Part shown: in pieces, positions 9,677-53,861 of the stretch
Position numbering within the stretch: position 1 is the stretch's first letter
Layout of the letters: every line of letters starts with the position of its first letter
Source of the DNA: Lentibacillus sp. CBA3610
Lineage (GTDB): Bacteria > Bacillota > Bacilli > Bacillales > Amphibacillaceae
Assembly: GCF_013373365.1 (NCBI RefSeq)
Contig: NZ_CP035925.1
Span: forward strand, 1-64,000
Reading direction: 5' to 3'
DNA: 64,000 nucleotides
Program-made: the position numbers and the translations under genes
Notes under the pieces: generated by a model
Databases searched by the model: none
Seen by the model: only the letters and a program-made list of their open reading frames with translations
Told to the model about the DNA's origin: nothing

Positions 9677-11806
9677 ATGCAATGTCAAAATTGTGGTATT
9701 CGTCCAGCAGCAATAAACGTCTCAATGCAAATCAACAATGAACGTATGAATATGCACCTATGTAATCAATGCTTCCGGGAAGTTCAGGGAAGTATGATGA
9801 ATGGCGACTTTAATCAAGGTCAGCAAGGCGATTTTGCCAATAAATTTTTCCAGGGTAATAGTCAGCAAGGTCAAGGATTCACCGGAACCAAAACACAGCA
9901 AGGATCCGGTAACAATGGCTTGCTTGATCAACTTGGCAAAAACGTAACAAATGCAGCACGTGCCGGACTGGTAGATCCGATTATCGGACGTGATAACGAA
10001 GTGAAGCGCACCATTGAAACGCTGAACCGCCGGAACAAAAACAACCCGGTGCTGATAGGTGAAGCCGGTGTCGGTAAAACGGCCATTGCAGAAGGTCTTG
10101 CACTGAAAATTACGGAAGGCAAAGTACCGGCAAAACTGATGGATAAAGAAATTTATCTGTTGGATGTCGCATCCCTCGTTGCCAACACCAGCATGCGCGG
10201 TCAGTTTGAAGAACGCATGAAACAACTCGTACAGGAATTGCAGGAACGTCAAAATGTCATCCTGTTCGTTGACGAAATACATCTTTTAGTTGGCGCAGGT
10301 ACTGCAGAAAGCTCACAAATGGATGCGGGCAATATTTTGAAACCTGCACTGGCTCGTGGTGAACTGCAATTGATCGGTGCCACAACACTGAAAGAATATC
10401 GTCAAATCGAGAAGGATGCCGCATTGGAGCGTCGTTTCCAGCCAATCATGGTTCAGGAGCCGTCACTGGAAGATGCTGTAAAGATTCTTGACGGTATTAA
10501 AGACCGTTATGAAAAATTCCATGAAGTCCGTTATTCCGATGAAGCTATCCGAGCGTTCGTCACATTGTCACAACGCTACATTCAGGACCGCTTTCTGCCG
10601 GACAAAGCGATTGACCTGATGGACGAGGTTGGTTCACGCTTGAATCTCGACAATGCGGAAAAAGACTCGGATTCAATTCAAAACCGTCTGGATGAAATTG
10701 TCCGTGAAAAAGAAGCAGCCGCTGAAAAAGAAGATTATGAACAAGCGGCACACTTGCGTTATCAGGAAATCCAGCTGCAAAAACAACTGGAAAAAGCCAA
10801 AGACGAAGAACAAATTGTCGATGTGGCTATTTCCGATATTCAATTGATTGTTGAAGAAAAAACCGGTATTCCGGTTACCAAACTGCAGGCTGATGAGCAA
10901 AAACAAATGCGTGACCTGGGTGAGAATCTTGAGAAGAAAGTCATCGGTCAGGACGAAGCAGTGCAAAAAGTTGCCAAAGCCGTCCGCCGCAGCCGTGCAG
11001 GACTGAAATCCAAATATCGTCCAATCGGATCATTCCTGTTTGTCGGGCCGACCGGTGTCGGTAAAACAGAACTGACAAAAGCACTTGCTGAAGAATTGTT
11101 CGGTTCACGTGACAGCTTAATCCGACTTGACATGAGTGAATATATGGAAAAACATTCGACTTCCAAAATTATTGGTTCACCACCGGGATATGTCGGCCAC
11201 GAAGAAGCAGGCCAGCTAACGGAAAAAGTCCGCCGCAATCCTTATTCCATCCTATTGCTGGATGAAATCGAAAAAGCACACCCTGATGTGCAGAACATGT
11301 TCCTGCAAATCATGGAAGACGGACAACTGACCGATTCGCACGGCCGTACCGTAAGCTTTAAAGAAACGGTTATCATCATGACAAGTAACGCCGGAACCGG
11401 TGAAAAGCAAATTAATGTCGGTTTCAACCGGGATGAACATGAATCGGTGCAAAATCTTGAAAACCTGAGCGCCTATTTCAAACCTGAGTTTCTGAACCGT
11501 TTTGACAGCATTATCACATTCAATGAGCTGACTGAAGATAGTCTTCTGCAAATTGTTGATCTGATGCTGACAGAACTGGAAGAAACGATTGAAGAAAATG
11601 ACATCGCCATCTCTGTTACCGACGAAGCGAAACATGAGCTTGTCCAGCTTGGATACGACCGCCGCTTTGGCGCACGACCATTACGCCGCGTTATCCAGGA
11701 CAAAATAGAAGATCAACTGACCGATCTGATTCTTGAAGAAGAAACAATTGGTGCTGTTCAAGTAGCCGTTCAAGATGGCGAAATTGTTGTTGGAAAAAGT
11801 GAATAA
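9677..11806 (+). CDS. clpE: ATP-dependent Clp protease ATP-binding subunit ClpE
   Basis: A 709-residue Hsp100 unfoldase that feeds proteins to ClpP. The N-terminus holds the ClpE-specific zinc finger (CQNCGIRP ... LCNQCFRE, residues 3-36), followed by a glutamine-rich linker. AAA module 1 has Walker A GEAGVGKT (about 127) and Walker B ILFVDEIH. Next comes a coiled UVR-type middle region ([20 protein letters not shown]). AAA module 2 has [21 protein letters not shown] and sensor residues ending in [13 protein letters not shown]. Start ATG has AAGGAGG upstream. Two CtsR boxes precede it, and a terminator follows, so it is monocistronic. Confidence 0.97.
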
Positions 11807-16727: not shown

Positions 16728-17501
16728 CTCCGCCATATCTTTTGTTTTAAATATAAAGACTGAACCTCCAACCAGCAGCACAATCATGATAAGTGTAACG
16801 AGGCTTGCCCCAATTAAATCAGATGGCACACTTCCGGTTACGAGCATTTGCTGAATATAGTTTGATATATTGTTCGGGCTCCATTCGAGTACATGGGCAA
16901 AAATAGACGTGATGACACCCATCAGGATGACGGTTGCAAACGTTAAAAACGCTACAAGACCGGGTATCTTAAATAGCGTATTATAAAAAATCGAGATGGA
17001 TACGACCAGTAGTATCCACAATCCATAAAAGAATACGACCTGCAGCAGTGCTCCAAATGATAAGTCACCGAATAATAAATTGATATAGTACCAGCTGGCA
17101 ATCATGCCGAGTGTAATGGAAGTTAAAGTCAGCAACGATAATGATGCCCATTTGGCTGTTATGTAGTTTGTATAGGAGACGGGTTTAACCAGAATTAATT
17201 CGGCGACACCGCTTTTGCGTTCACCGGCAATCGTGCCCATCGACATGAGTGCAATGACTAATACACCGAGGCTATTAAATTGACCAAGACTCATCATGAC
17301 GACATCACTCGGCTGATATTCCGGCAGCTGGATTTCAGTCCCGTCAGGCATTCCGCCGGCAGCGTCAATGATTTGCGGCAAAAAATAATTGGTGAGTGGA
17401 TCCACGATGGCAAGCAGTATCATGACCAAAGGCACCCATATCCATTTAATGTTCCGGACATTTTCAATCAGTTCTTTTTGAAAAAGCGTCCACCATTGCA
17501 T
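16725..17501 (-). CDS. yxlG: ABC-2 type permease (YxlG-like)
   Basis: A 258-residue integral membrane permease with six hydrophobic segments and the long extracytoplasmic loop after the first (PQIIDAAGGMPDGTEIQLPE). The central SMGTIAGERKSGVAELILVKPV motif is characteristic of ABC-2 permeases of the NosY/YxlG type. It follows yxlE- and yxlF-like genes in the same order as the B. subtilis sigY operon. In that operon the proteins act around the ECF sigma factor SigY. No sigY or anti-sigma gene is present here. Its ATG overlaps the stop of yxlF by one base. Confidence 0.88.
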   Translation of the reverse strand: MQWWTLFQKELIENVRNIKWIWVPLVMILLAIVDPLTNYFLPQIIDAAGGMPDGTEIQLPEYQPSDVVMMSLGQFNSLGVLVIALMSMGTIAGERKSGVAELILVKPVSYTNYITAKWASLSLLTLTSITLGMIASWYYINLLFGDLSFGALLQVVFFYGLWILLVVSISIFYNTLFKIPGLVAFLTFATVILMGVITSIFAHVLEWSPNNISNYIQQMLVTGSVPSDLIGASLVTLIMIVLLVGGSVFIFKTKDMAE

Positions 17502-18409
17502 CAGCTATTCACCGCCTTCATGAACATGTCTTCCAATGATGCGCGATTAATGGAAAAAGATGTAAGTGGCCATTCTTCAGCTGAAGCAGCAGCTAAAATA
17601 TGACGCCGCGCTTCAGCCATATCTTCTACCGTCACATGCAGGCGACTCTGGTCAGTATAACATGCTGTGACAGCTGACAAGGCTTCCACTTTCTTTTGGT
17701 AATCACGTAAATTCCCGTCAAAACTGAGCTCAATTTTGGCGATTTGGTATTTTTCACGAAGCGCTTCCATCGAGCCCGACTCAATAATCCTGCCTTCATG
17801 CAAAAGAAGCAGTTCATCACTGACTTCATCGGCATCACCTAAAATATGGGTGGAAAATAATAGCGTTATATCTTCTTTCAGCTCTTCCATTAATGTCAGC
17901 ACTTCACGACGGCCAATTGGATCCAATGATGATACCGGTTCATCAAGGATCAGCAATTTTGGCTGGTGAATCATGGCCTGGGCTATCCCGAGCCGCTGTT
18001 TCATCCCACCGGAGTACTTACCGATTCGCTGATTTGCAGCATCGGTAAGTCCAATGCGTTCCAACAGTTTTTTGGCACGTTTTGTTGCTTCTGATTTTGA
18101 GAGATGCGCCAGCCGCCCGACATGAACAAGAAACTCCTGTCCGGTCATCCATTTATAGAAGACAGGGTGCTGCGGCAGATAGCCAATTGACTTGCGTATA
18201 TCACGATTTTCTTTCATATCGGTAAATGAAATGGTCCCGCTTGTCGGTTTTAACAGTCCGGAAAGCATACGTAATGTTGTCGTTTTGCCGGCACCGTTTG
18301 GACCAATCAGGGCAATACATTTTCCGGATTCAAATTGGAAACTGACGTGATCGACGGCAGGGTTGCCACCGTATTTTTTACTTTAATTGTCTGCGCTAAG
18401 CAATGCCAT
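17501..18409 (-). pseudogene. yxlF: ABC transporter ATPase (YxlF-like) with an in-frame stop at codon 9
   Basis: A 302-codon reading frame for an ABC-2 exporter ATPase: Walker A GPNGAGKT, signature YSGGMKQRLGIAQAMI, Walker B LLILDEPVSSLDP and FSTHILGD. The natural start is ATG 18407-18409, with AAGGAGAAACGACTA upstream and directly abutting the yxlE stop. From there it reads MALLSADN, then TAA (plus strand tta at 18383-18385), then SKKYGGNPAVDHVSF. The family expects a leucine-type residue at that spot, so a single substitution or base-call error fits. If the stop is real, the only other start lies inside the domain at 18268, after Walker A, and would give an inactive protein. Confidence 0.82.
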
Positions 18410-18631
18410 TTAGTCGTTTCTCCTTCCGAAAATGAAATATATAATAGGGCCAATAATATTAATGAAAACAATAACAAGTGCCCACGCCCATTTTGGTCCG
18501 TTCGTTCGCTCAATTCGGATCAGGTCAATAATGGCTGCGATCAGCAAAATAGCTTGGATGACAAGCATTGGCACAATCACAGTCAACATATCAGTCCAGT
18601 CGATTTCATTGATTGAGTTGATTTCCTCCAT
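18410..18631 (-). CDS. yxlE: PLDc_N domain membrane protein (YxlE-like)
   Basis: A 73-residue protein with two hydrophobic segments (TVIVPMLVIQAILLIAAIID and WAWALVIVFINIIGPIIYFI). The motif FINIIGPIIYFIFGRR is that of the phospholipase D N-terminal-type membrane domain. It matches B. subtilis YxlE in length and gene order. ATG 18631 has GGAGGAATCATA upstream. The stop TAA is followed immediately by the ATG of the ATPase gene. Confidence 0.87.
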   Translation of the reverse strand: MEEINSINEIDWTDMLTVIVPMLVIQAILLIAAIIDLIRIERTNGPKWAWALVIVFINIIGPIIYFIFGRRND

Positions 18632-18698
18632 TATGATTCCTCCATCGTAATGTATAGTCATTATACGGAATCAGTTATAAGAAGGTTTCATTAACAAC

Positions 18699-18747
18699 AA
18701 AACACTGGCACTTGTCATATAGTTCAATAATCAAGTGCCAGTGTTTT
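18699..18747. terminator. Long perfect hairpin between the XRE gene and the yxlE operon
   Basis: aaaacactggcacttg (18699-18714) and its exact complement (18732-18747) form a 16-bp stem with A- and T-runs at the ends. It is placed to stop the minus-strand XRE gene before yxlE. Confidence 0.9.
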
Positions 18748-18792
18748 AGCTATCCATGATTTTATTAAGGTCAGTACAATAAACAATTCCGC

Positions 18793-19212
18793 TTATAGTT
18801 GATCGTCAATGATATCAATAAAGTGTTCCAGCATATCATGTACGGCCTGCTGCTTCCGGACGGGGATATTTCGCAGGCGGAAAATCTGCTTTTTGAGAGA
18901 GGGGTTTTCCATCAGATATTGAACAAGCTCTACAGCTTCCTCGTCAAATGACGTCGTGTTGGAACTGTAAATCCGTTTGAAATCTTTCAGCAAGTCTTCC
19001 CGGAAAGTATGATTACCAACAATATGATCAATGGTCACGTCGAAAAGTTCGCTTAATTTGATCAATGATTCCAAATCCGGGGTCACTCTATTTGTTTCCC
19101 AGCGGATGACCACATAGCGGGAGATGTTTAATTGATATGCCAGCTTTTCTTGTGTCCAGTTATGCTGCTCACGCAAAAATTTAATATTGTAAGCAATCTT
19201 TTCCAAATTCAT
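18793..19212 (-). CDS. XRE-family helix-turn-helix regulator
   Basis: A 139-residue protein. Residues 1-60 form a Cro/C1-type HTH: IKFLREQHNWTQEKLAYQLN, then YVVIRWETNRVTPDLESLIK and LSELFDVTIDHIVG. The C-terminal 75 residues are helical and not assigned. ATG 19212 gives the family-like start MNLEKIAYNIKF; a TTG at 19242 is the upstream alternative. It is followed by a strong hairpin and is separate from the yxlEFG operon. Target unknown. Confidence 0.88.
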   Translation of the reverse strand: MNLEKIAYNIKFLREQHNWTQEKLAYQLNISRYVVIRWETNRVTPDLESLIKLSELFDVTIDHIVGNHTFREDLLKDFKRIYSSNTTSFDEEAVELVQYLMENPSLKKQIFRLRNIPVRKQQAVHDMLEHFIDIIDDQL

Positions 19213-19369
19213 GATTATCACACTCTGTCTTGTAATGGACAAATTATCCGGATTTTTGATCGATATTTAAATCCTACCATGATTCAGAGTGTGAAAAGGG
19301 TTTATTGTTGTGCTCTATATGCACATATTGTATGATGTTTTAAAATAGAACATGTAGGGAGATGGTCCC

Positions 19370-19672
19370 ATGATGGGATGCTTGGTTTTGTATCATAGAA
19401 CTATCACAAGTTTGACAAAAATTATGATACTGAGGGCAATGTTTCATGAAGAGGATTTTGAAATACATGTTGTTGAAGCGGCTACAGTGATTATGTACTT
19501 GTGGAATGTGGATAAAGAAAGTATTTTGCAGGCAGCACTCATTTTTGAAACGGAAAACATCAATACAGGTTTTGGGTTTGGCGATTGTAAAATGGATGCA
19601 CTGGACGAAGCACGCATGATACTATCTCAATCAACAAAATTATCAACAACCTCATGGGCCGCCGCAAAGTAA
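19370..19672 (+). CDS. Hypothetical small protein, doubtful
   Basis: A 100-codon frame beginning MMGCLVLYHRTI, with GTAGGGAG about 12 bases upstream. The middle (FHEEDFEIHVVEAATVIMYL) looks protein-like, but I recognise no family. The last 12 codons run into the DnaA-box cluster. It may be spurious, or a diverged gene standing where yfhD would be expected. Confidence 0.3.
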   Translation: MMGCLVLYHRTITSLTKIMILRAMFHEEDFEIHVVEAATVIMYLWNVDKESILQAALIFETENINTGFGFGDCKMDALDEARMILSQSTKLSTTSWAAAK

Positions 19673-19800
19673 TCAACAAGATTATCCCCATTATCCACAG
19701 CCGATCAGGAGATTATCCACTGATCAGCTGTGAATAAAAGGGCCTTTAGTGGCAGGGGTTCACAGACTTATCAACACCGTAAATGATTTTTGTGGATAAG
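19640..19800. promoter_or_regulatory. DnaA-box cluster
   Basis: Within 160 bp there are three perfect TTATNCACA boxes: 19691-19699 plus, 19729-19737 minus and 19791-19799 minus. There are also near-matches TTATCAACA at 19640 and 19768, TAATCAACA at 19670, TTATCCCCA at 19682 and TTATCCACT at 19713. The boxes occur on both strands, and several are adjacent. No dnaA, dnaN or AT-rich unwinding stretch is present. This resembles the non-origin DnaA-box clusters known in B. subtilis, which can titrate DnaA or regulate nearby genes. Confidence 0.75.
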
Positions 19801-19819
19801 TGAAGAGGAAATCGCCATA

Positions 19820-19945
19820 TTAACTGCGATTTCCTCTTTGGGTTAACCGGTTGTACTCCCGATCAGCTTTTCTGAATTCTTTTTGATAAAGGACTTCCTG
19901 TGTTTTGGACAAAAATTTTTCCTGCTCAATGGGTTTTTTCGGCAT
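19820..19945 (-). CDS. yfhE: YfhE family small protein
   Basis: A 41-residue basic protein: MPKKPIEQEKFLSKTQEVLY, then QKEFRKADREYNRLTQRGNRS. The segment LSKTQEVLYQKEFRKAD matches the short YfhE family of Bacillaceae. Function unknown. ATG 19945 is preceded by GTGAGGGATTATCT. It lies just upstream of yfhF, as in B. subtilis. Confidence 0.8.
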   Translation of the reverse strand: MPKKPIEQEKFLSKTQEVLYQKEFRKADREYNRLTQRGNRS

Positions 19946-19970
19946 AGATAATCCCTCACTTTAGAAAGGT

Positions 19971-20013
19971 CGTTCAAAAGTCAGGTACATGACACATCCT
20001 TTTGAACGATTTT
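19971..20013. terminator. Hairpin with T-run upstream of yfhE
   Basis: tcgttcaaaag and cttttgaacga are complementary across a 17-base loop and followed by a run of six T on the plus strand. The gene it serves is unclear; it might terminate a plus-strand transcript crossing the DnaA-box region. Confidence 0.55.
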
Positions 20014-20037
20014 TTAATAGGATTAACCTAATCTGAG

Positions 20038-20312
20038 AAAATATACAAAGGCTGTTTTCTAAAAGATGTGTTTTGGATTAGATTTAAGGATATATTACCT
20101 TACTAGCAACCCGAATACACGTAGACTCCTGGGGGAGCAGAGGCATCGGTGAGACCCCGGAGCGACGAAGCGAAACTTCCACCGATCAGCTGCGAGTTGC
20201 GAGAACGTAGGCTTCGCCGAAATGACTTGCAACGTGACGAGCACGTGTATTCGGGTTGCGGGGTCCATAGCAACAATAATGTGAAGACAGCCTATACAAA
20301 ATCGCCCTAACC
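20038..20312. mobile_element. Non-coding inverted-repeat element at the 3' end of yfhF
   Basis: Inner arms gcaacccgaatacacgt (20105-20121) and acgtgtattcgggttgc (20242-20258) are exact complements. Outer flanks caaaggctgttttc and gaagacagcctatac are imperfectly complementary. The interior carries the GC-rich block actcctgggggagcagaggc, which is typical of a palindromic repeat I know from other Bacillaceae genomes, plus a core (20185-20241) shared with the tRNA-cluster repeats. It encodes nothing and has the layout of a MITE-like element. Confidence 0.7.
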
Positions 20313-21193
20313 TCTGTTTCCTGCAATGCCTCCTGCAGATACGGGTAGACAAAGGAAAAATCATTCTCTTTGGCCTTTTGCGGAAACGCGTATTGTCCCT
20401 CCAGGATTAACAGGCTCATTTGGCCGAGAACTGTACGAATCGGCAAGGAAGGCGCAGGAATCCAGTCGGGGCGGCGCAAGACTTTTGCCAGTACGTGGGT
20501 AAAATCCTTGTTCCGCTTCGGATGTGGTGCGGTTACATTCACAGGTCCATTGATATGCTGATTAAACAGACAAAACTGAATTAGTCCGACGACATCTTCT
20601 ACATGGATCCAGGAAATCCATTGTTCACCATTACCGATTCTTCCGCCTGCGAACATTTTAACCGGCAGCTTCATCAGAGGCAGCGCGCCTTCTTTTCCCA
20701 GTATGATTCCAAACCGCATGAAAACGGTCCGGATGCCAAGCTCCTCCGCCTGTTTTGCCGTTTGCTCCCATTCCATGACAATTTCCGCCAGAAAGTCGTC
20801 ACCAGACTGTGTCGTGTTTTCGGTGAATATAAGATCTTCGGACGTTCCATAAAATCCTACCGCCGAGCCGCTTATGAAGACGTCGGGCTTCGTCTCCATT
20901 TGGTCCATCATCTGGACAACCTGCCGGGTGGTGTTAATCCGGCTTGTGCGGATGGATTCTTTTTTCTTTTCAGTCCAGTAACCGAATAATGATTCCCCGG
21001 CCAAATTAATGACCGCTTGTATGGCCGGCATGCCTTCAACGGAATGGTTATAGCTGATGAAAGTTTTTTTCTCGGTGTTCGTATGCTTTTCCGGGGAGCG
21101 TGTCAGTATGTAAACATGATGGTCTTCTTCGGTCAGCGCTTTGGTCAGATGCCTGCCGACAAATCCGGTCCCGCCGGTTATCATAATATTCAT
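20186..21193 (-). CDS. yfhF: TIGR01777-type epimerase (YfhF) with an element-derived C-terminus
   Basis: A 335-residue predicted NAD-dependent sugar epimerase-like protein. The Rossmann motif TGGTGFVGRHL is at residues 5-15, followed by INLAGESLFGYWTEKKKESI and the family motifs GSAVGFYG and RFGIILGKEGALP. Function of the family is unknown. The family normally ends at about LQEALQE. Here roughly 40 further codons come from the inserted repeat (RAILYRLSSHYCCYGPRNPN onward). The core fold may be intact. ATG 21193 follows GGAGTGATTGGC. It is divergent from recX. Confidence 0.88.
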   Translation of the reverse strand: MNIMITGGTGFVGRHLTKALTEEDHHVYILTRSPEKHTNTEKKTFISYNHSVEGMPAIQAVINLAGESLFGYWTEKKKESIRTSRINTTRQVVQMMDQMETKPDVFISGSAVGFYGTSEDLIFTENTTQSGDDFLAEIVMEWEQTAKQAEELGIRTVFMRFGIILGKEGALPLMKLPVKMFAGGRIGNGEQWISWIHVEDVVGLIQFCLFNQHINGPVNVTAPHPKRNKDFTHVLAKVLRRPDWIPAPSLPIRTVLGQMSLLILEGQYAFPQKAKENDFSFVYPYLQEALQETEVRAILYRLSSHYCCYGPRNPNTRARHVASHFGEAYVLATRS

Positions 21194-21322
21194 GCCAATC
21201 ACTCCAATCATTAACTCTCAACTATCAGCAGTGCTGTCTTTGAGTTTATTCTACTATTTTTCACTAAGTATTTCATTCTTCGGTCCGCTATCATGTTATA
21301 ATCGTCTAAAAAGGGGGAAGTC

Positions 21323-22138
21323 ATGTTGTCGAAAATTTCCCGGATTACAACACAAAAGAAACATAAAGACCGTTACAATATCTTTCTGGATGACGGGCAA
21401 GGAGAGAAGTATGGTTTCAGTGTTGATGAAGCCGTATTAGTCGAGTACCGTTTGCGTAAAAATATGGAACTCGATGACGCAACCATTACGGCACTCATCC
21501 AAAAAGATACGTTACATAAATCATATACACTCGCGATCAATTTTCTAAGCTACCGAATGCGCACAAAAAAAGAAATCCATGGTTATTTGCTCAAAAAAGA
21601 AGTAGATGAGGAGCATATCGCTAAAATAATGGACAAATTATCGGAGGAAGGGCTGGTTAACGACAACGAATTTGCACAAGCGTTTGTCAGAACACGTATT
21701 CAAACGGCAGAGAAAGGGCCAATGCTTGTTAAACAAGAGCTGATGCAAAAAGGCGTTGATAACGCGATTGCCAGTGAAGCGGTGGATATGTACACATTTG
21801 ATGTTCAATTTGACAAAGCCATGAAGCTGGCGGCGAAAAAACTGAGAACTGACAATAATAAATCCTTCCAGAAGCAAATCCAGCAACTGCAGGGCACATT
21901 GATGCAAAAAGGGTTCTCCGGCGAAGTTGTCCAAGCTGTCACCGCAGAGTTCCGGAATGAAAAAGATGATGATGCTGAATGGGCAGCACTCGTAAAACAG
22001 GGTGAAAAATTGCTGCGGAAACATCAGCCGAAATACAGCGGTTTTGAGCTTGAGCAAAAAATAAAAGAAGCCTTATATCGCAAAGGCTTCACAATTGAAT
22101 TAATCACAATCTTTTTGGATGAGAAACGTGAAGAGTAG
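21323..22138 (+). CDS. recX: Regulatory protein RecX
   Basis: A 271-residue RecX, which binds RecA filaments and modulates recombination and SOS. The repeated three-helix units are visible: AINFLSYRMRTKKEIHGYLL, IMDKLSEEGLVNDNEFAQAF, VRTRIQTAEKGPMLVKQELM, and the C-terminal KIKEALYRKGFTIELI. Length fits the long Bacillus form. ATG 21323 has AAAAGGGGGAAGTC upstream. It lies divergent from yfhF, as in B. subtilis. Confidence 0.94.
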   Translation: MLSKISRITTQKKHKDRYNIFLDDGQGEKYGFSVDEAVLVEYRLRKNMELDDATITALIQKDTLHKSYTLAINFLSYRMRTKKEIHGYLLKKEVDEEHIAKIMDKLSEEGLVNDNEFAQAFVRTRIQTAEKGPMLVKQELMQKGVDNAIASEAVDMYTFDVQFDKAMKLAAKKLRTDNNKSFQKQIQQLQGTLMQKGFSGEVVQAVTAEFRNEKDDDAEWAALVKQGEKLLRKHQPKYSGFELEQKIKEALYRKGFTIELITIFLDEKREE

Positions 22139-22162
22139 AAGTTGACTTTGAAATGCAATCAG

Positions 22163-22822
22163 TTACCGATCGATAACAATTTCATTTCGCCCATCATCTT
22201 CATTAAAAATCTGTTCAGCCACAACTTCCGGTCCCTTTAAAACCGATGGGTCATCCACATGTGTCGAATGATCCCAGAAAGGCGTGTTCATGCCACCCAT
22301 GTAGACAGCTGTTATCGCAATCGGCTCATTTTCCCATTCCTTTTGTAAACTTTCCGTAAAACCTTTAATGGCAAACTTGCTGGCACTATAGATGGATTCA
22401 TGCACTTTTCCGCGCAGGCCGGCAGTGGAAATGATGGTTAAAATACGCCCATTGCTTTCGCGGATCAGTGGGAGTGCTGACTGAACGCTTAATATAGTCC
22501 CTTTGACATTAGTATGGAGTGTTTGATCGATATCACTGCTGGTATAATCCTCCAGCGGCCCAAAGATCCCTATTCCGGCGTTATTGATGAAAACATCCAG
22601 CTCGCCAATTTGCTGAAAGGCGATACTGACCGAAGCCGGCTCCTGGACATCACAAAGGATGACTTCGGCTTGTCCATTATTTTTCTGAATTTTCTTTTGG
22701 ACGAGGTGAAGTTTCGTATCGTCACGCCCCAATAAAAATACTTTATAGCCATTGTCGGCATATCCCAGTGCCAGTGCACGTCCCAGACCACTTCCTGCAC
22801 CTGTGATTGCAACCGTAGACAT
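22163..22822 (-). CDS. Short-chain dehydrogenase/reductase
   Basis: A 219-residue classical SDR. The cofactor motif is TGAGSGLGRAL (residues 7-17), followed by NNAGIG (about 84) and the catalytic set S (IISTAG), YSASK (Y and K about 148-152). LGRDDTKL after the second strand contains an arginine that suggests NADPH. ATG 22822 follows GGAGGGATACAG. Substrate unknown. It sits between recX and yfhH, convergent with recX. Confidence 0.9.
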   Translation of the reverse strand: MSTVAITGAGSGLGRALALGYADNGYKVFLLGRDDTKLHLVQKKIQKNNGQAEVILCDVQEPASVSIAFQQIGELDVFINNAGIGIFGPLEDYTSSDIDQTLHTNVKGTILSVQSALPLIRESNGRILTIISTAGLRGKVHESIYSASKFAIKGFTESLQKEWENEPIAITAVYMGGMNTPFWDHSTHVDDPSVLKGPEVVAEQIFNEDDGRNEIVIDR

Positions 22823-22912
22823 TCTGTATCCCTCCAAAAATAGGTTATGGTTATTTCTATTTTGCTAAACTATTGGTAAAATGTAAACTGATAGAGAAGG
22901 GAGCATTAAAAG

Positions 22913-23242
22913 ATGGATTTCAGATATAGTGATTATACAGTTGAGCAATTGCGGGAAGAAGTGGGAAAGCTAAAGGAAAAAGCCCAAAAAGCGGAGCAGC
23001 TGGGGAATATCAGCGAAGTGGCGATTAATGAGCGTAAAATGCAAGTCGCTATTGCCTACATGATGAATCCGGACGACTTCTCAGCACAGGATATACATGA
23101 ATTGAATGGTGACCCCGGCTATAAATTTAAAATTAATTATATCAACGGTGTGTTTGCCTGGGGCCATCGTGTTAATTTATTGGATGAAGTGCATGAAAAA
23201 GAAGAAGCCCTTCCGATTTCACTGCTGGGGGATAAGGCCTGA
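22913..23242 (+). CDS. yfhH: YfhH family protein (DUF1811)
   Basis: A 109-residue protein: MDFRYSDYTVEQLREEVGKL, then a coiled helix (KAQKAEQLGNISEVAINERK), MMNPDDFSAQDIHELNGDPG and a beta segment FKINYINGVFAWGHRVN. It matches the YfhH/DUF1811 family in length and pattern. Function unknown. ATG follows GAGAAGGGAGC. Confidence 0.9.
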   Translation: MDFRYSDYTVEQLREEVGKLKEKAQKAEQLGNISEVAINERKMQVAIAYMMNPDDFSAQDIHELNGDPGYKFKINYINGVFAWGHRVNLLDEVHEKEEALPISLLGDKA

Positions 23243-23257
23243 GTATGAATAGAAATG

Positions 23258-23346
23258 GCGGCTGACGTTTCAGATGCCAGATCAGCTTGAAATAAATCGA
23301 CAAGGTAACCGATTTTCATATCGAAAACGTTATCCGAAATTTTTTT
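23258..23346 (+). repeat. Dispersed ~110-bp element, copy 1 (diverged)
   Basis: It contains gctgacgtttcagatgccag and ends with cgaaaacgttatccgaaat. It aligns with copies at 25672, 27143, 27262, 31884, 32517 and 38085, but its middle is more diverged. Confidence 0.6.
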
Positions 23347-23385
23347 GATTAAAAAACAACAGCCGGGTAAGTCCCGTGCTGTTGT

Positions 23386-24372
23386 TTAAACCGGATTGTC
23401 ACCGACCTCAAGCTTATGCTGCAGCTTTTGTTCGGAAAAAATCCAGCCCGTATAAGACGTTAAAATACGCATATTATCATCAATTTGCACGACCGCAACA
23501 AACGGGTAGCGCTCATTTGACCGGTACCGTAAATCAATAAATCGAATCTCGGTAAAATCATCAAAGTCATGTACTTCCCAGCGGTAAACCGGGGAGAATG
23601 ACAAAAATGCATCGATATTTTTATCCTGTTGTGCCAGGTGAAAAAGTTTGTTATCCGGCAAAGGGATTTTCTCAAATTGGTCGACAATATCAATATGGCC
23701 ATCTTTTACCGATCCGACATAAAAGTAATCTGTTGTCGTAATAGCTACACGCCAGCGATTTTGCTTAATGGTTGGCGAGGTTGCAATCTGTTCGGTATTC
23801 GGATAAAATTCCTTGATCGTCCGCACAATCTCCCGTTTATCTATATACCGTTTTACATAATAAAGTGCAATGACGGCATAAATGATCAAGAACGTATAGC
23901 CCGGATTCGCTCCAAGCAGCCAGGCGACAATCCCGCCGATATGGAGCATGAAAATATACGGATCAAACGTATTAATCACCCCGTGCGCAACCCATTTATT
24001 GAAAAACGGCCGGTATGCTTGAGTGCCATAAGCATTGGGAATGTCAACAAGAACGTGGATAATCACCGCGAGAGCAGTCCATGCCCATAAATGCAGAAAA
24101 TTGGCCTCTGGCACGATTGCATGAATCACACCAGCTATCAAAATTCCCCACATAAGAACAGCGGGGATGGAGTGGGTAGCTCCACGATGATGCCGTATAT
24201 AAACAGCATTATTACGCAATTTTAAAAGGGTATCAAAATCCGGCGCATGCGAACCTATAACTGTACCGGCCAATACAGCGGCAAACAAACCAGGATCATT
24301 GTGCACAACGGGATCCAATGTTGACAGTCCGCCGATTGCAACCCCCATAACAATATGGGTGCCTGTATCCAT
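23386..24372 (-). CDS. yfhP: YfhP family membrane-bound metal-dependent hydrolase
   Basis: A 328-residue member of the YdjM/LexA-binding-inner-membrane-hydrolase family. N-terminal MDTGTHIVMGVAIGGLSTLD and the histidine-rich segments SHAPDFDTLLKLRNNAVYIR, HHRGATHSIP and WTALAVIIHVLVDIPN carry the metal ligands. Four to five hydrophobic segments follow, then a 130-residue soluble tail. A related B. subtilis protein has been described as a transcriptional repressor of neighbouring genes, but nothing here tests that. ATG has AGGAGGAACCTAACTT upstream. Divergent from mutY. Confidence 0.9.
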   Translation of the reverse strand: MDTGTHIVMGVAIGGLSTLDPVVHNDPGLFAAVLAGTVIGSHAPDFDTLLKLRNNAVYIRHHRGATHSIPAVLMWGILIAGVIHAIVPEANFLHLWAWTALAVIIHVLVDIPNAYGTQAYRPFFNKWVAHGVINTFDPYIFMLHIGGIVAWLLGANPGYTFLIIYAVIALYYVKRYIDKREIVRTIKEFYPNTEQIATSPTIKQNRWRVAITTTDYFYVGSVKDGHIDIVDQFEKIPLPDNKLFHLAQQDKNIDAFLSFSPVYRWEVHDFDDFTEIRFIDLRYRSNERYPFVAVVQIDDNMRILTSYTGWIFSEQKLQHKLEVGDNPV

Positions 24373-24553
24373 AAGTTAGGTTCCTCCTAATATTAAGTTA
24401 TGGTATATAGTGAATGTAAAGAGCGATAAGCTCCGCGTATTTATTCCGTTTGTAATTTTTCGTAACCCCGCTTCAAAACGATGAGATAATTGATCAGGGG
24501 ATTAAACAAAAAGTCATAAGTCAATACAAGTGTAACATAAAGGATGTAGCAAA

Positions 24554-25624
24554 ATGACTGATAAAATTTTACAGAGTTTTGACATTCACGGTTTTCAAAA
24601 ACAATTAATCGAATGGTATCAAAACAATAAACGGGATCTGCCGTGGCGTCATGATCAGGATCCCTATAAAGTCTGGGTTTCTGAAATCATGCTGCAGCAG
24701 ACCCAGGTTGATACCGTTATTCCGTACTTTCAACGGTTTATGTCAAAATATCCAACTTTATATGATTTAGCATATGCAGACCAGCAGGATGTATTAAAAA
24801 CGTGGGAGGGACTTGGCTACTATTCCCGTGCACGGAATCTGCAAAACGCTGTTCGCGAAGTTGTTTCTGACTATAATGGTGAAGTGCCGGATAATCCAAA
24901 GCAATTAGGGAAACTTAAAGGAATTGGCCCATATACGAAAGGTGCCATATTATCGATTGCATTTGATCGGCCACAACCGGCTGTTGATGGTAATGTGATG
25001 CGGGTGCTTTCGCGCGTTTTAAGAATTGAGGATGATATTGCACAGCCTAAGGTAAAAAAACAATTTGAACGTTTTGCTGAAGCTCTCATTTCACATGAAG
25101 ATCCTTCTTCATTCAATCAGGGCGTCATGGAGCTTGGTGCGCTGATATGTACGCCGAAAGAGCCGATGTGCATGTTTTGTCCGGTTCAGGAATATTGCCG
25201 TGCGTTTCAGGCGGGAATGGAACAGGAGCTTCCGGTCAAGTCAAAAGCGAAAAAACAGAAGAAAATCGCCTACACTGTCCTTTTAATTCGCAATGACAAT
25301 GATGAATATGTGATCGAAAAACGGCCTGAAAATGGTTTGCTCGCAAATATGTGGCAATTTCCGATGGCTCCGGTTGACGAAATCGGGAAAGATCATATAA
25401 AAAATTGGGTACAATTGGAATACGGTATCGATGTTGAATTATCATCCAAGCAGGGTGATCTGAAACATGTATTCTCCCACATTATCTGGCAATTGGAAGT
25501 CGTGGCCGCAACCTCAACAAGTGATGAAGCAGCAGATGACCGTTTGCGCTTTGTGAGACGTGATGAATTGGAAAACTATCCCTTCCCGGTTTCCCATCAA
25601 AAAATGATGCAGTATCTTTCATGA
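24554..25624 (+). CDS. mutY: A/G-specific adenine DNA glycosylase MutY
   Basis: A 356-residue base-excision repair enzyme that removes adenine opposite 8-oxoguanine. The helix-hairpin-helix region reads LKGIGPYTKGAILSIAF, followed by the catalytic aspartate in AVDGNVMRVLSR (about residue 145). The iron-sulphur cluster cysteines are CTPKEPMCMFCPVQEYC (about 197-213). The C-terminal NUDIX-like domain (VLLIRNDNDEYVIEKRPENG) recognises 8-oxoG. ATG has AAAGGATGTAGCAAA upstream. Confidence 0.96.
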   Translation: MTDKILQSFDIHGFQKQLIEWYQNNKRDLPWRHDQDPYKVWVSEIMLQQTQVDTVIPYFQRFMSKYPTLYDLAYADQQDVLKTWEGLGYYSRARNLQNAVREVVSDYNGEVPDNPKQLGKLKGIGPYTKGAILSIAFDRPQPAVDGNVMRVLSRVLRIEDDIAQPKVKKQFERFAEALISHEDPSSFNQGVMELGALICTPKEPMCMFCPVQEYCRAFQAGMEQELPVKSKAKKQKKIAYTVLLIRNDNDEYVIEKRPENGLLANMWQFPMAPVDEIGKDHIKNWVQLEYGIDVELSSKQGDLKHVFSHIIWQLEVVAATSTSDEAADDRLRFVRRDELENYPFPVSHQKMMQYLS

Positions 25625-25671
25625 AATGGAGGACTTGTCCTTATTGTATGCAGGAATCGACTGTTATATTT

Positions 25672-25785
25672 TTCGAAAAGCCATGACATTTCGGATGATG
25701 TTTTTAATACGGAAATTAGCTGTTACGCCGATTTCTTCCAATCTGACCTCTGATATCTAAAAAGACGCGGCAGTTTTTTCTTATT
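25672..25785 (-). repeat. Dispersed ~110-bp element, copy 2
   Basis: On the minus strand it reads aactgccgcgtctttttaga, the agaggtcagattggaagaaa-type middle, and then the acattcatc-like end with catccgaaat. It aligns with copies 3 and 6 in reverse orientation. Confidence 0.7.
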
Positions 25786-25879
25786 CCCATTATATACCTC
25801 TGGCAGTTAATTTTAACTCCGCATATGGCGGATAACTGTTTTTAAAATGGAAAAAGTAATGACTGCGGAGGTGATAGTG

Positions 25880-25930
25880 ATGGGCTACAGAAAGCAGAAT
25901 CAAAAGTCAAAGCAAAATAAGAAATCGTAA
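25880..25930 (+). CDS. Tiny basic ORF (16 residues)
   Basis: MGYRKQNQKSKQNKKS, preceded by an excellent ribosome site (GCGGAGGTGATAGTG) and followed 20 bp later by a terminator. The context resembles that of a small spore or nucleic-acid-binding protein gene; in B. subtilis, sspE and yfhS lie in this neighbourhood. I do not recognise the sequence. Confidence 0.5.
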   Translation: MGYRKQNQKSKQNKKS

Positions 25931-25949
25931 CCACCCCCAATGTTAGAAA

Positions 25950-25982
25950 TGAAAGAGCTCCCTTCCCCAGGGAGCTCTTTTT
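25950..25982 (+). terminator. Terminator after the tiny ORF
   Basis: agagctccctt and agggagctctttt form a perfect stem of about 10 bp with a short loop and T5. Confidence 0.9.
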
Positions 25983-26069
25983 AAGTGCGTTGGAAATGTG
26001 CCAAAAATGCCGTGAAAATGGACCGAGAGAGTGTTCAAGTCACGTAAAGTAAGCGCTAAAAGAAAGCTT

Positions 26070-53772: not shown

Positions 53773-53861
53773 CTAAAATTTGATAAATTGGGCGAAGGGA
53801 TCAACATTTAGCCGAAACTTTACAAGCAGACAAATTTCGGCAGCAGTAAAGAGCGAATTTA

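Follow-up and report, generated by a model that had tools for sequence, protein, structure and literature searches.

A conserved DnaA-box array behind yfhE in Lentibacillus shares much of its box spacing with an array behind tsaD

The cluster of DnaA boxes behind yfhE in Lentibacillus sp. CBA3610 is a conserved array with much the same spacing plan as a second array, located behind tsaD. We suggest that it is probably, although with considerable room for doubt, a dedicated chromosomal site of DnaA assembly, an ordered DnaA sink of the type represented by the DnaA-box clusters of Bacillus subtilis. This assessment is based on the eight to nine boxes of the array, the conservation of their spacing and orientation, the fixed place of the array 3' of yfhE, and the sister array behind tsaD.

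RESULTS

The window, the whole stretch of DNA that was analyzed, comprises bases 1 to 64000 of a single 4.04-Mb contig. The yfhE array, termed site II, occupies positions 19628-19799, on the forward strand in the orientation of our models, with position 0 set at the start of box E (19691). It was originally predicted to be a cluster outside the origin, and 841 kb, or 20.8% of the chromosome in the clockwise direction, do separate it from dnaA (at 3,214,518); with its dense boxes away from oriC, it is a non-origin DnaA-box cluster. The predicted content of three perfect TTATNCACA boxes and five near matches within 160 bp, on both strands, was also borne out. The forward strand carries the degenerate box A (19628-19636, position -63, CAATCAACA), for which most of the 11 genus arrays in the alignment have ATCCACA; box B (19640-19648, position -51, TTATCAACA, one mismatch); the weak box C (19670-19678, position -21, TAATCAACA, two mismatches); box D (19682-19690, position -9, TTATCCCCA, one mismatch), directly abutting the perfect box E (19691-19699, position 0, TTATCCACA); box F (19713-19721, position +22, TTATCCACT, one mismatch); and box I (19768-19776, position +77, TTATCAACA, one mismatch). 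Two further perfect boxes are inverted, namely, box G (19729-19737, position +38, TTATTCACA) and box J (19791-19799, position +100, TTATCCACA). Column identity across the 11 genus arrays was 75% for box A, 85% for box B, 56% for box C, the least conserved box, and 94% for box G, the maximum for the genus. An outlying perfect box on the reverse strand (19507-19515), 125 bp outside the 160-bp cluster and within a small open reading frame (ORF), recurs at an identical or almost identical offset in three or more relatives, in one of them as TTGTCCACA, and may be either a member of the array or a by-product of the coding sequence.

The neighboring gene yfhE (19820-19945, reverse strand) was confirmed by Pfam (PF14152, YfhE; 35.3 bits, with a cutoff of 27), with no match in NCBIfam; it runs toward the array, which adjoins its 3' side and not its promoter. 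From the other side, the small ORF of 100 codons (19370-19672, forward strand), matched in neither Pfam nor NCBIfam, runs toward the array in convergence with yfhE, and its final codons overlap boxes A and B. Its homologues adjoin the array in several relatives, most of them aligning only to about residue 71 to 95, and are absent in others; those seen in several family members are mostly next to the same helix-turn-helix (HTH) gene. An inverted repeat (GAGGAAATCGC...GCGATTTCCTC, 19805-19836) between the array and yfhE, overlapping the end of the gene, has the sequence of a probable two-way terminator; it was absent from the output of the pattern scan, and hairpins like it, composed of other letters, occur in several relatives. 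Rfam gave no match over positions 17000-26000. On the 3' side of yfhF lies an interspersed repeat (20095-20270) with 44 matches in its own genome, itself included, and no match in Rfam; the yfhF ORF as listed (20186-21211) extends into it.

This anatomy bears on the proposal that DnaA, once bound to the array, controls the expression of an adjacent gene, as it does at sda, ywlC, and trmE of B. subtilis. DnaA acts as a transcription factor at several B. subtilis clusters (PMC4447404; for this and the other sources cited by PMC number, statements come from the available portion of the text), and the array lies upstream of a neighbor in some relatives, at one site II locus and at one locus of the tsaD array (site I) where another gene separates ydiF from the array. 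The window array, however, is situated between the 3' ends of the convergent small ORF and yfhE and, judged by position, is not a DnaA-controlled promoter. Promoter-like matches at the array were at chance level (6 found versus 4.4 expected), the gene opposite yfhE varies between relatives, and 8 of 9 site I loci and 7 of 10 site II loci had convergent neighbors by our own inspection. The anatomy of the window thus lends no support to the gene-regulatory part of the original prediction, and we regard this explanation as quite improbable.

Clusters like the yfhE array were absent from shuffled sequence and lie far above chance frequency. The array contains 7 boxes with no more than one mismatch per 160 bp, whereas the next densest place in the window, at 53858, contains 4. 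The densest place in 60 dinucleotide shuffles of the window held at most 4 such boxes, and 4 was likewise the maximum in 2,000 shuffles of the surrounding 700 bp. When the genome was sampled in 20 stretches of 20 kb (400 kb in all), the maximum was 1 to 3 in 19 of them and 7 in one, a stretch that had been picked because of a model match inside it. Genome-wide, exact TTATNCACA was found 203 times in 4.04 Mb, compared with 151 times for the reversed pattern.

A DNA search recovered the array region from 11 of the 12 genus genomes, that of the window included, and R1, a sequence profile of the array made from 11 genus sequences, located it in all 12; the R1 match to the window (19627-19800; 120 bits, E value of 1.3e-35) is that of a member of its own training set. 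Among the 11 aligned genus arrays, mean pairwise identity was 78.6% in box columns versus 42.7% in spacer columns, and there were few indels between boxes A and G; the last two boxes have apparently been lost in two species. No small ORF or HTH gene was detected next to the array in 6 of the 12 genomes; since the left-hand neighbor changes while the array stays, the array is kept for itself. A fortuitous cluster retained by drift or coding constraint might be argued from the overlap of boxes A and B with the end of the small ORF, but the contrast between box and spacer identity, the retention of the array without the small ORF in several species, and the recurrence of a similar plan at two loci make the likelihood of such an origin next to negligible.

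Beyond the genus, site II was seen in at least 13 genera of the family in addition to that of the window, and the best 30 family loci matched by R1 comprised 25 of site II and 5 of site I. Exact-pattern searching was insensitive (the best pattern recovered 18 of 78 loci), and a scan by neighboring proteins was used instead, in which 80 named loci were chosen by YfhH alone, independently of the array model. Five or more boxes per 180 bp were present in 25 of these loci, always 3' of yfhE or, at loci without a detected yfhE, 3' of yfhF or of the GNAT gene. A second model, R2, trained on 38 arrays, matched 24 of the 80 loci at an E value of 1e-6 or lower, 23 of them among the 25 found by box count; of the individual loci, L143 has four boxes, L129 is weak by R2, and L138 was missed by R2. 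Site II was thereby detected in Mesobacillus, Sutcliffiella, five species of Peribacillus, Metabacillus indicus, and Priestia megaterium and was absent from two other Peribacillus loci. No cluster was found near yfhE at the YfhH-chosen loci, some of which end near that gene, of the B. subtilis, B. licheniformis, and B. pumilus groups or of Heyndrickxia, Neobacillus, and Anoxybacillus, one Anoxybacillus locus having a weak R2 match (20 bits) near yfhE. In total, site II was not found at 55 of the 80 loci, at least five of which end too near yfhE to show it, and its absence from this many indicates that it is dispensable in many relatives.

The array is therefore present in many related genera and absent in others. 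In proposing a lineage-specific site, the original prediction was too narrow: all 12 genus genomes, 13 or more further genera of the family, and several Bacillaceae-type genera carry the array, and its box plan is common to the tsaD-ydiF cluster of relatives of B. subtilis. The accompanying view that the locus is not a familiar B. subtilis site held up, as it is outside the top 20 of 269 DnaA-binding regions in the available portion of PMC4447404, in which the main text contains no mention of yfh, and the B. subtilis group has no such cluster around its yfh genes.

The second R1 match in the Lentibacillus genome (C1:3653491-3653663; 39 bits, E value of 1.6e-9) is the site I array; tsaD (NCBIfam TsaD, 458 bits) flanks it on one side and an ABC-F gene (ydiF) on the other, each with its 3' end facing the array. 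The common plan consists of box starts at -63, -51, -9, 0, +22, and about +77, together with an inverted box at about +100; the window array has a box within 1 bp of each of the first six positions, that at -63 being degenerate. We compared 38 model-selected arrays, 14 of site I and 24 of site II, in a purely descriptive manner, given that the loci were found by the model and that the anchor made use of -9, 0, and +22, so that the result is partly built in: a box was present at -63 in 8/14 site I and 18/24 site II arrays, at -51 in 14/14 and 18/24, at -9 in 14/14 and 23/24, at 0 in 14/14 and 21/24, at +22 in 14/14 and 17/24, and at +75 to +79 in 13/14 and 21/24, respectively, with an inverted box at +99 to +103 in 11/14 and 21/24. 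The two sites were set apart by an inverted box at +37/+38, found in 0/14 site I versus 16/24 site II arrays; a forward box at +35/+36 was found in 6/14 and 4/24.

Bacilli tsaD loci, the best 30 of 91 genomes searched and hence a sample in which nearer relatives are favored, had five or more boxes per 180 bp downstream of tsaD in 23 cases, 20 of them within approximately 500 bp and three at a distance of 0.7 to 1.3 kb. For the Bacillota outside the Bacilli, we sampled 30 genomes from 30 genera, the first in list order (G562-G591) among those encountered in the R2 scan of the phylum; 19 had at least four boxes per 180 bp at 75 to 514 bp behind tsaD, two of these clusters at 60 to 63% G+C, and the remainder of the ~4-kb tsaD locus contained such a cluster in 0 of the 30. 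An extra abutting box at about -72 recurs behind non-Bacilli tsaD at seven loci; the spacing in these clusters is 0, 9, and 21, often with 63-64 and 72-73, even at 60 to 63% G+C.

Retention of the plan was scored for clusters of at least five boxes at loci chosen by neighboring gene and not by model. The number of plan positions filled was 3.56 of 6 at yfhE loci (n = 25) versus a random mean of 2.23 (maximum of 1,000 randomizations, 2.64), 2.91 of 6 at Bacilli tsaD loci (n = 23) versus 1.97 (maximum of 1,000, 2.39), and 3.14 of 6 at non-Bacilli tsaD loci (n = 14) versus 2.24, the observed score being unreached in 500 randomizations; because the loci share ancestry, these scores measure conservation rather than independent events, and the mere abutting of boxes raises them, any general preference for abutting boxes being ignored by the randomization. 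In clusters of four or more boxes anchored solely on the 0/-51 pair, the -9 box was exact in 18/18 yfhE, 7/10 Bacilli tsaD, and 8/9 non-Bacilli tsaD clusters, after the omission of those lacking the pair (12/30, 14/24, and 10/19, respectively). Several tsaD clusters fill just one or two of the six positions, and the plan is often partly kept at tsaD. Sites I and II lie at 10.9 to 19.3% and 16.5 to 25.5% of the chromosome from dnaA, respectively, in the 11 of 30 genomes with two clear matches and a contig of known length (context was checked in 8, and one further genome with two matches was omitted), and this constancy of distance from oriC may simply reflect gene order.

R2 matched 342 of 398 Bacilli genomes and 121 of 149 genomes of the phylum; the latter figure means that the weaker R2 matches are not specific to the plan, and some of them are oriC arrays. 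For both reasons R2 was rejected as the sole evidence for a census, and gene-selected loci were counted instead. The best 29 R2 loci of the class besides the window included, by our reading, 26 beside tsaD and 2 beside yfhE, and 8 of the best 19 phylum loci beyond the Lentibacillus genome adjoin tsaD. In the flanks of the other 11, tblastn did not find the Lentibacillus tsaD, yfhE, dnaA, or neighbor proteins; these good matches in other Bacillota are possibly further array sites. In B. spizizenii, the best R2 match (40 bits) was at tsaD-ydiF, with boxes at -52, -9, 0, +22, and +31 among others when the anchor was chosen to favor the first four of these offsets; its R2 matches elsewhere were weak (19.5 bits or less), and there was no cluster near yfhE. 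The Lentibacillus chromosome also has a third box cluster, with 7 boxes per 160 bp, about 40 kb to the left of dnaA (~3174.8 kb; positions 9796-9951 of locus L265) and behind a gene for an HtrA-type protease, presumably where B. subtilis has its yydA cluster.

The Lentibacillus oriC stretch, with 21 boxes in 14 kb, was matched by R1 at only 14.9 bits and by R2 weakly, at 18.7 bits, upstream of dnaA; the dnaA-dnaN region was unmatched by R2. Origin DNA between dnaA and dnaN nevertheless has forward boxes at offsets similar to those of the array: in four genomes belonging to another family they lie at -63, -52, -9, and 0, the left half of the plan, and the Lentibacillus oriC has forward boxes at -64, -53, and -9 relative to a poor anchor. 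In one of the four genomes (L199), the origin boxes directly precede trio-like A+T-rich DNA. These likenesses, together with the weak R2 match upstream of dnaA, could be taken to mean that the array is a relic of an origin or a cryptic one, or else that it was copied as a decoy from the dnaA-dnaN half of oriC. In that half, however, trio-like A+T-rich DNA follows the boxes, and none was found at the array: a simple pattern, which could miss a weak trio, detected a DnaA-trio-like run in 3/3 oriC stretches and in neither array, and the A+T content was 58% at 19600-19830 versus 69% in oriC. The combination of a DnaA-trio with an A+T-rich unwinding region is thus not a feature of the yfhE array, and an origin of this kind, be it remnant, cryptic, or a copied decoy, is, in our estimation, very improbable. 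The arrays and the origin may share an assembly geometry, and the array may be a decoy of oriC by design rather than by descent.

DISCUSSION

The closest characterized relative of the yfhE array is found in B. subtilis, where the DNA downstream of gcp (tsaD) and ydiF, designated region 4, contains 10 boxes and is among the eight regions that bind DnaA most strongly in vitro; its apparent Kd is 0.15 uM for ATP-DnaA and 0.33 uM for ADP-DnaA, with a 16-fold preference for the ATP form at 55 nM, and, together with one other high-affinity region, it shows the largest difference between ATP-DnaA and ADP-DnaA (PMC4447404). Smith and Grossman (2015) considered that the orientation and spacing of boxes probably affect ATP preference, the regions being too few to tell (PMC4447404). 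Like the yfhE array, the gcp-ydiF cluster is a many-boxed, non-origin element between convergent 3' ends, in a place where the Lentibacillus genome also carries an array; it differs in being at another locus and in the inverted +37/+38 box, which was present in 16 of 24 site II and 0 of 14 site I arrays, and the B. subtilis group yielded no site II in its yfh region. The clusters at sda/yqeG, ywcI/vpr, ywlC, yydA, and trmE similarly comprise DnaA boxes outside oriC, but they are located upstream of genes, several of which are regulated by DnaA (PMC4447404).

With an ordered DnaA sink as the preferred explanation, we can outline how the array might act. DnaA, preferentially in its ATP form, would load cooperatively and head to tail on the forward boxes at -63, -51, -9, 0, +22, and +77, with the inverted boxes at +38 and +100 possibly bounding the oligomer, and the ordered structure would resemble that formed on the box half of oriC but would have no unwinding element. 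Following every initiation event, the replication fork would first reach and copy the tsaD array, at ~11% of the chromosome from dnaA, and later the yfhE array, at ~21%; this copying would double the DnaA-holding capacity stepwise and lower the amount of free ATP-DnaA, and with less of it at oriC, premature reinitiation would be restrained. Titration by the yfhE array, the other possibility raised in the original prediction, is plausible. The set of clusters removed by Okumura and coworkers in B. subtilis reportedly includes gcp-ydiF. Deletion of six clusters led to earlier initiation in that organism, and a single cluster provided a partial cure (Okumura 2012, via PMC5295017 and PMC13220808). 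A 10-fold overproduction of DnaA, on the other hand, caused no overinitiation in B. subtilis (PMC13220808), which weakens the case for a sink. Simple titration, moreover, requires boxes but not their exact spacing; the conserved spacing therefore counts against a plain sink and brings into consideration the regulatory elements of Escherichia coli.

Elements such as datA, DARS1, and DARS2 offer another model, in which an ordered DnaA oligomer on the array would alter the nucleotide state of the protein, by ATP hydrolysis or ADP release, and the array would be a cis-acting DnaA switch of the Bacillota. Hydrolysis of DnaA-bound ATP is stimulated by datA in an IHF-dependent way, and in DARS, a core of DnaA boxes promotes the release of ADP from DnaA. 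Like the arrays, datA and the DARS elements are noncoding groups of boxes with conserved key sites, differing mainly in their spacers, and a conserved relative distance from oriC (PMC4585315); the spacing of the arrays is conserved across families, and the strong discrimination between nucleotide forms at gcp-ydiF fits the same model. On the other side, datA depends on IHF, which is missing from B. subtilis, the available text of PMC13220808 describes that organism as having neither datA nor DARS, and ordered binding of ATP-DnaA is possible without catalysis. Taking these points together, we see a nucleotide switch as possible but on the unlikely side. In a more ambitious form of the argument, which we put forward tentatively and with low expectation, both arrays would be copies of one ancient cis-element of the Bacillota, whose box code builds an ATP-DnaA oligomer and switches or inactivates DnaA; such a code might, with comparable reserve, be written as approximately 9-12-42-9-22 bp between successive forward boxes.

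A full-text literature search, which was judged on titles and the beginnings of abstracts and covered few subscription papers, returned no report of the yfhE array, of the shared spacing plan, or of the conservation at tsaD. The yfhE copy could have been missed because the B. subtilis group appears to be without site II. According to the available portion of a 2026 review, it is unknown whether regulators in B. subtilis keep DnaA-ADP and DnaA-ATP in balance, datA and DARS being absent (PMC13220808).

A box code that is maintained across families and occurs twice on one chromosome suggests that geometry matters, for which a plain sink has no need. The array is a directly testable element, and the 3' side of tsaD is a predictable place to look in other Bacillota. 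If the ancient-element reading is true, the arrays would be the missing Gram-positive counterpart of datA and DARS. The two arrays suggest a widespread chromosomal brake on, or counter of, replication that has not been recognized as one element.
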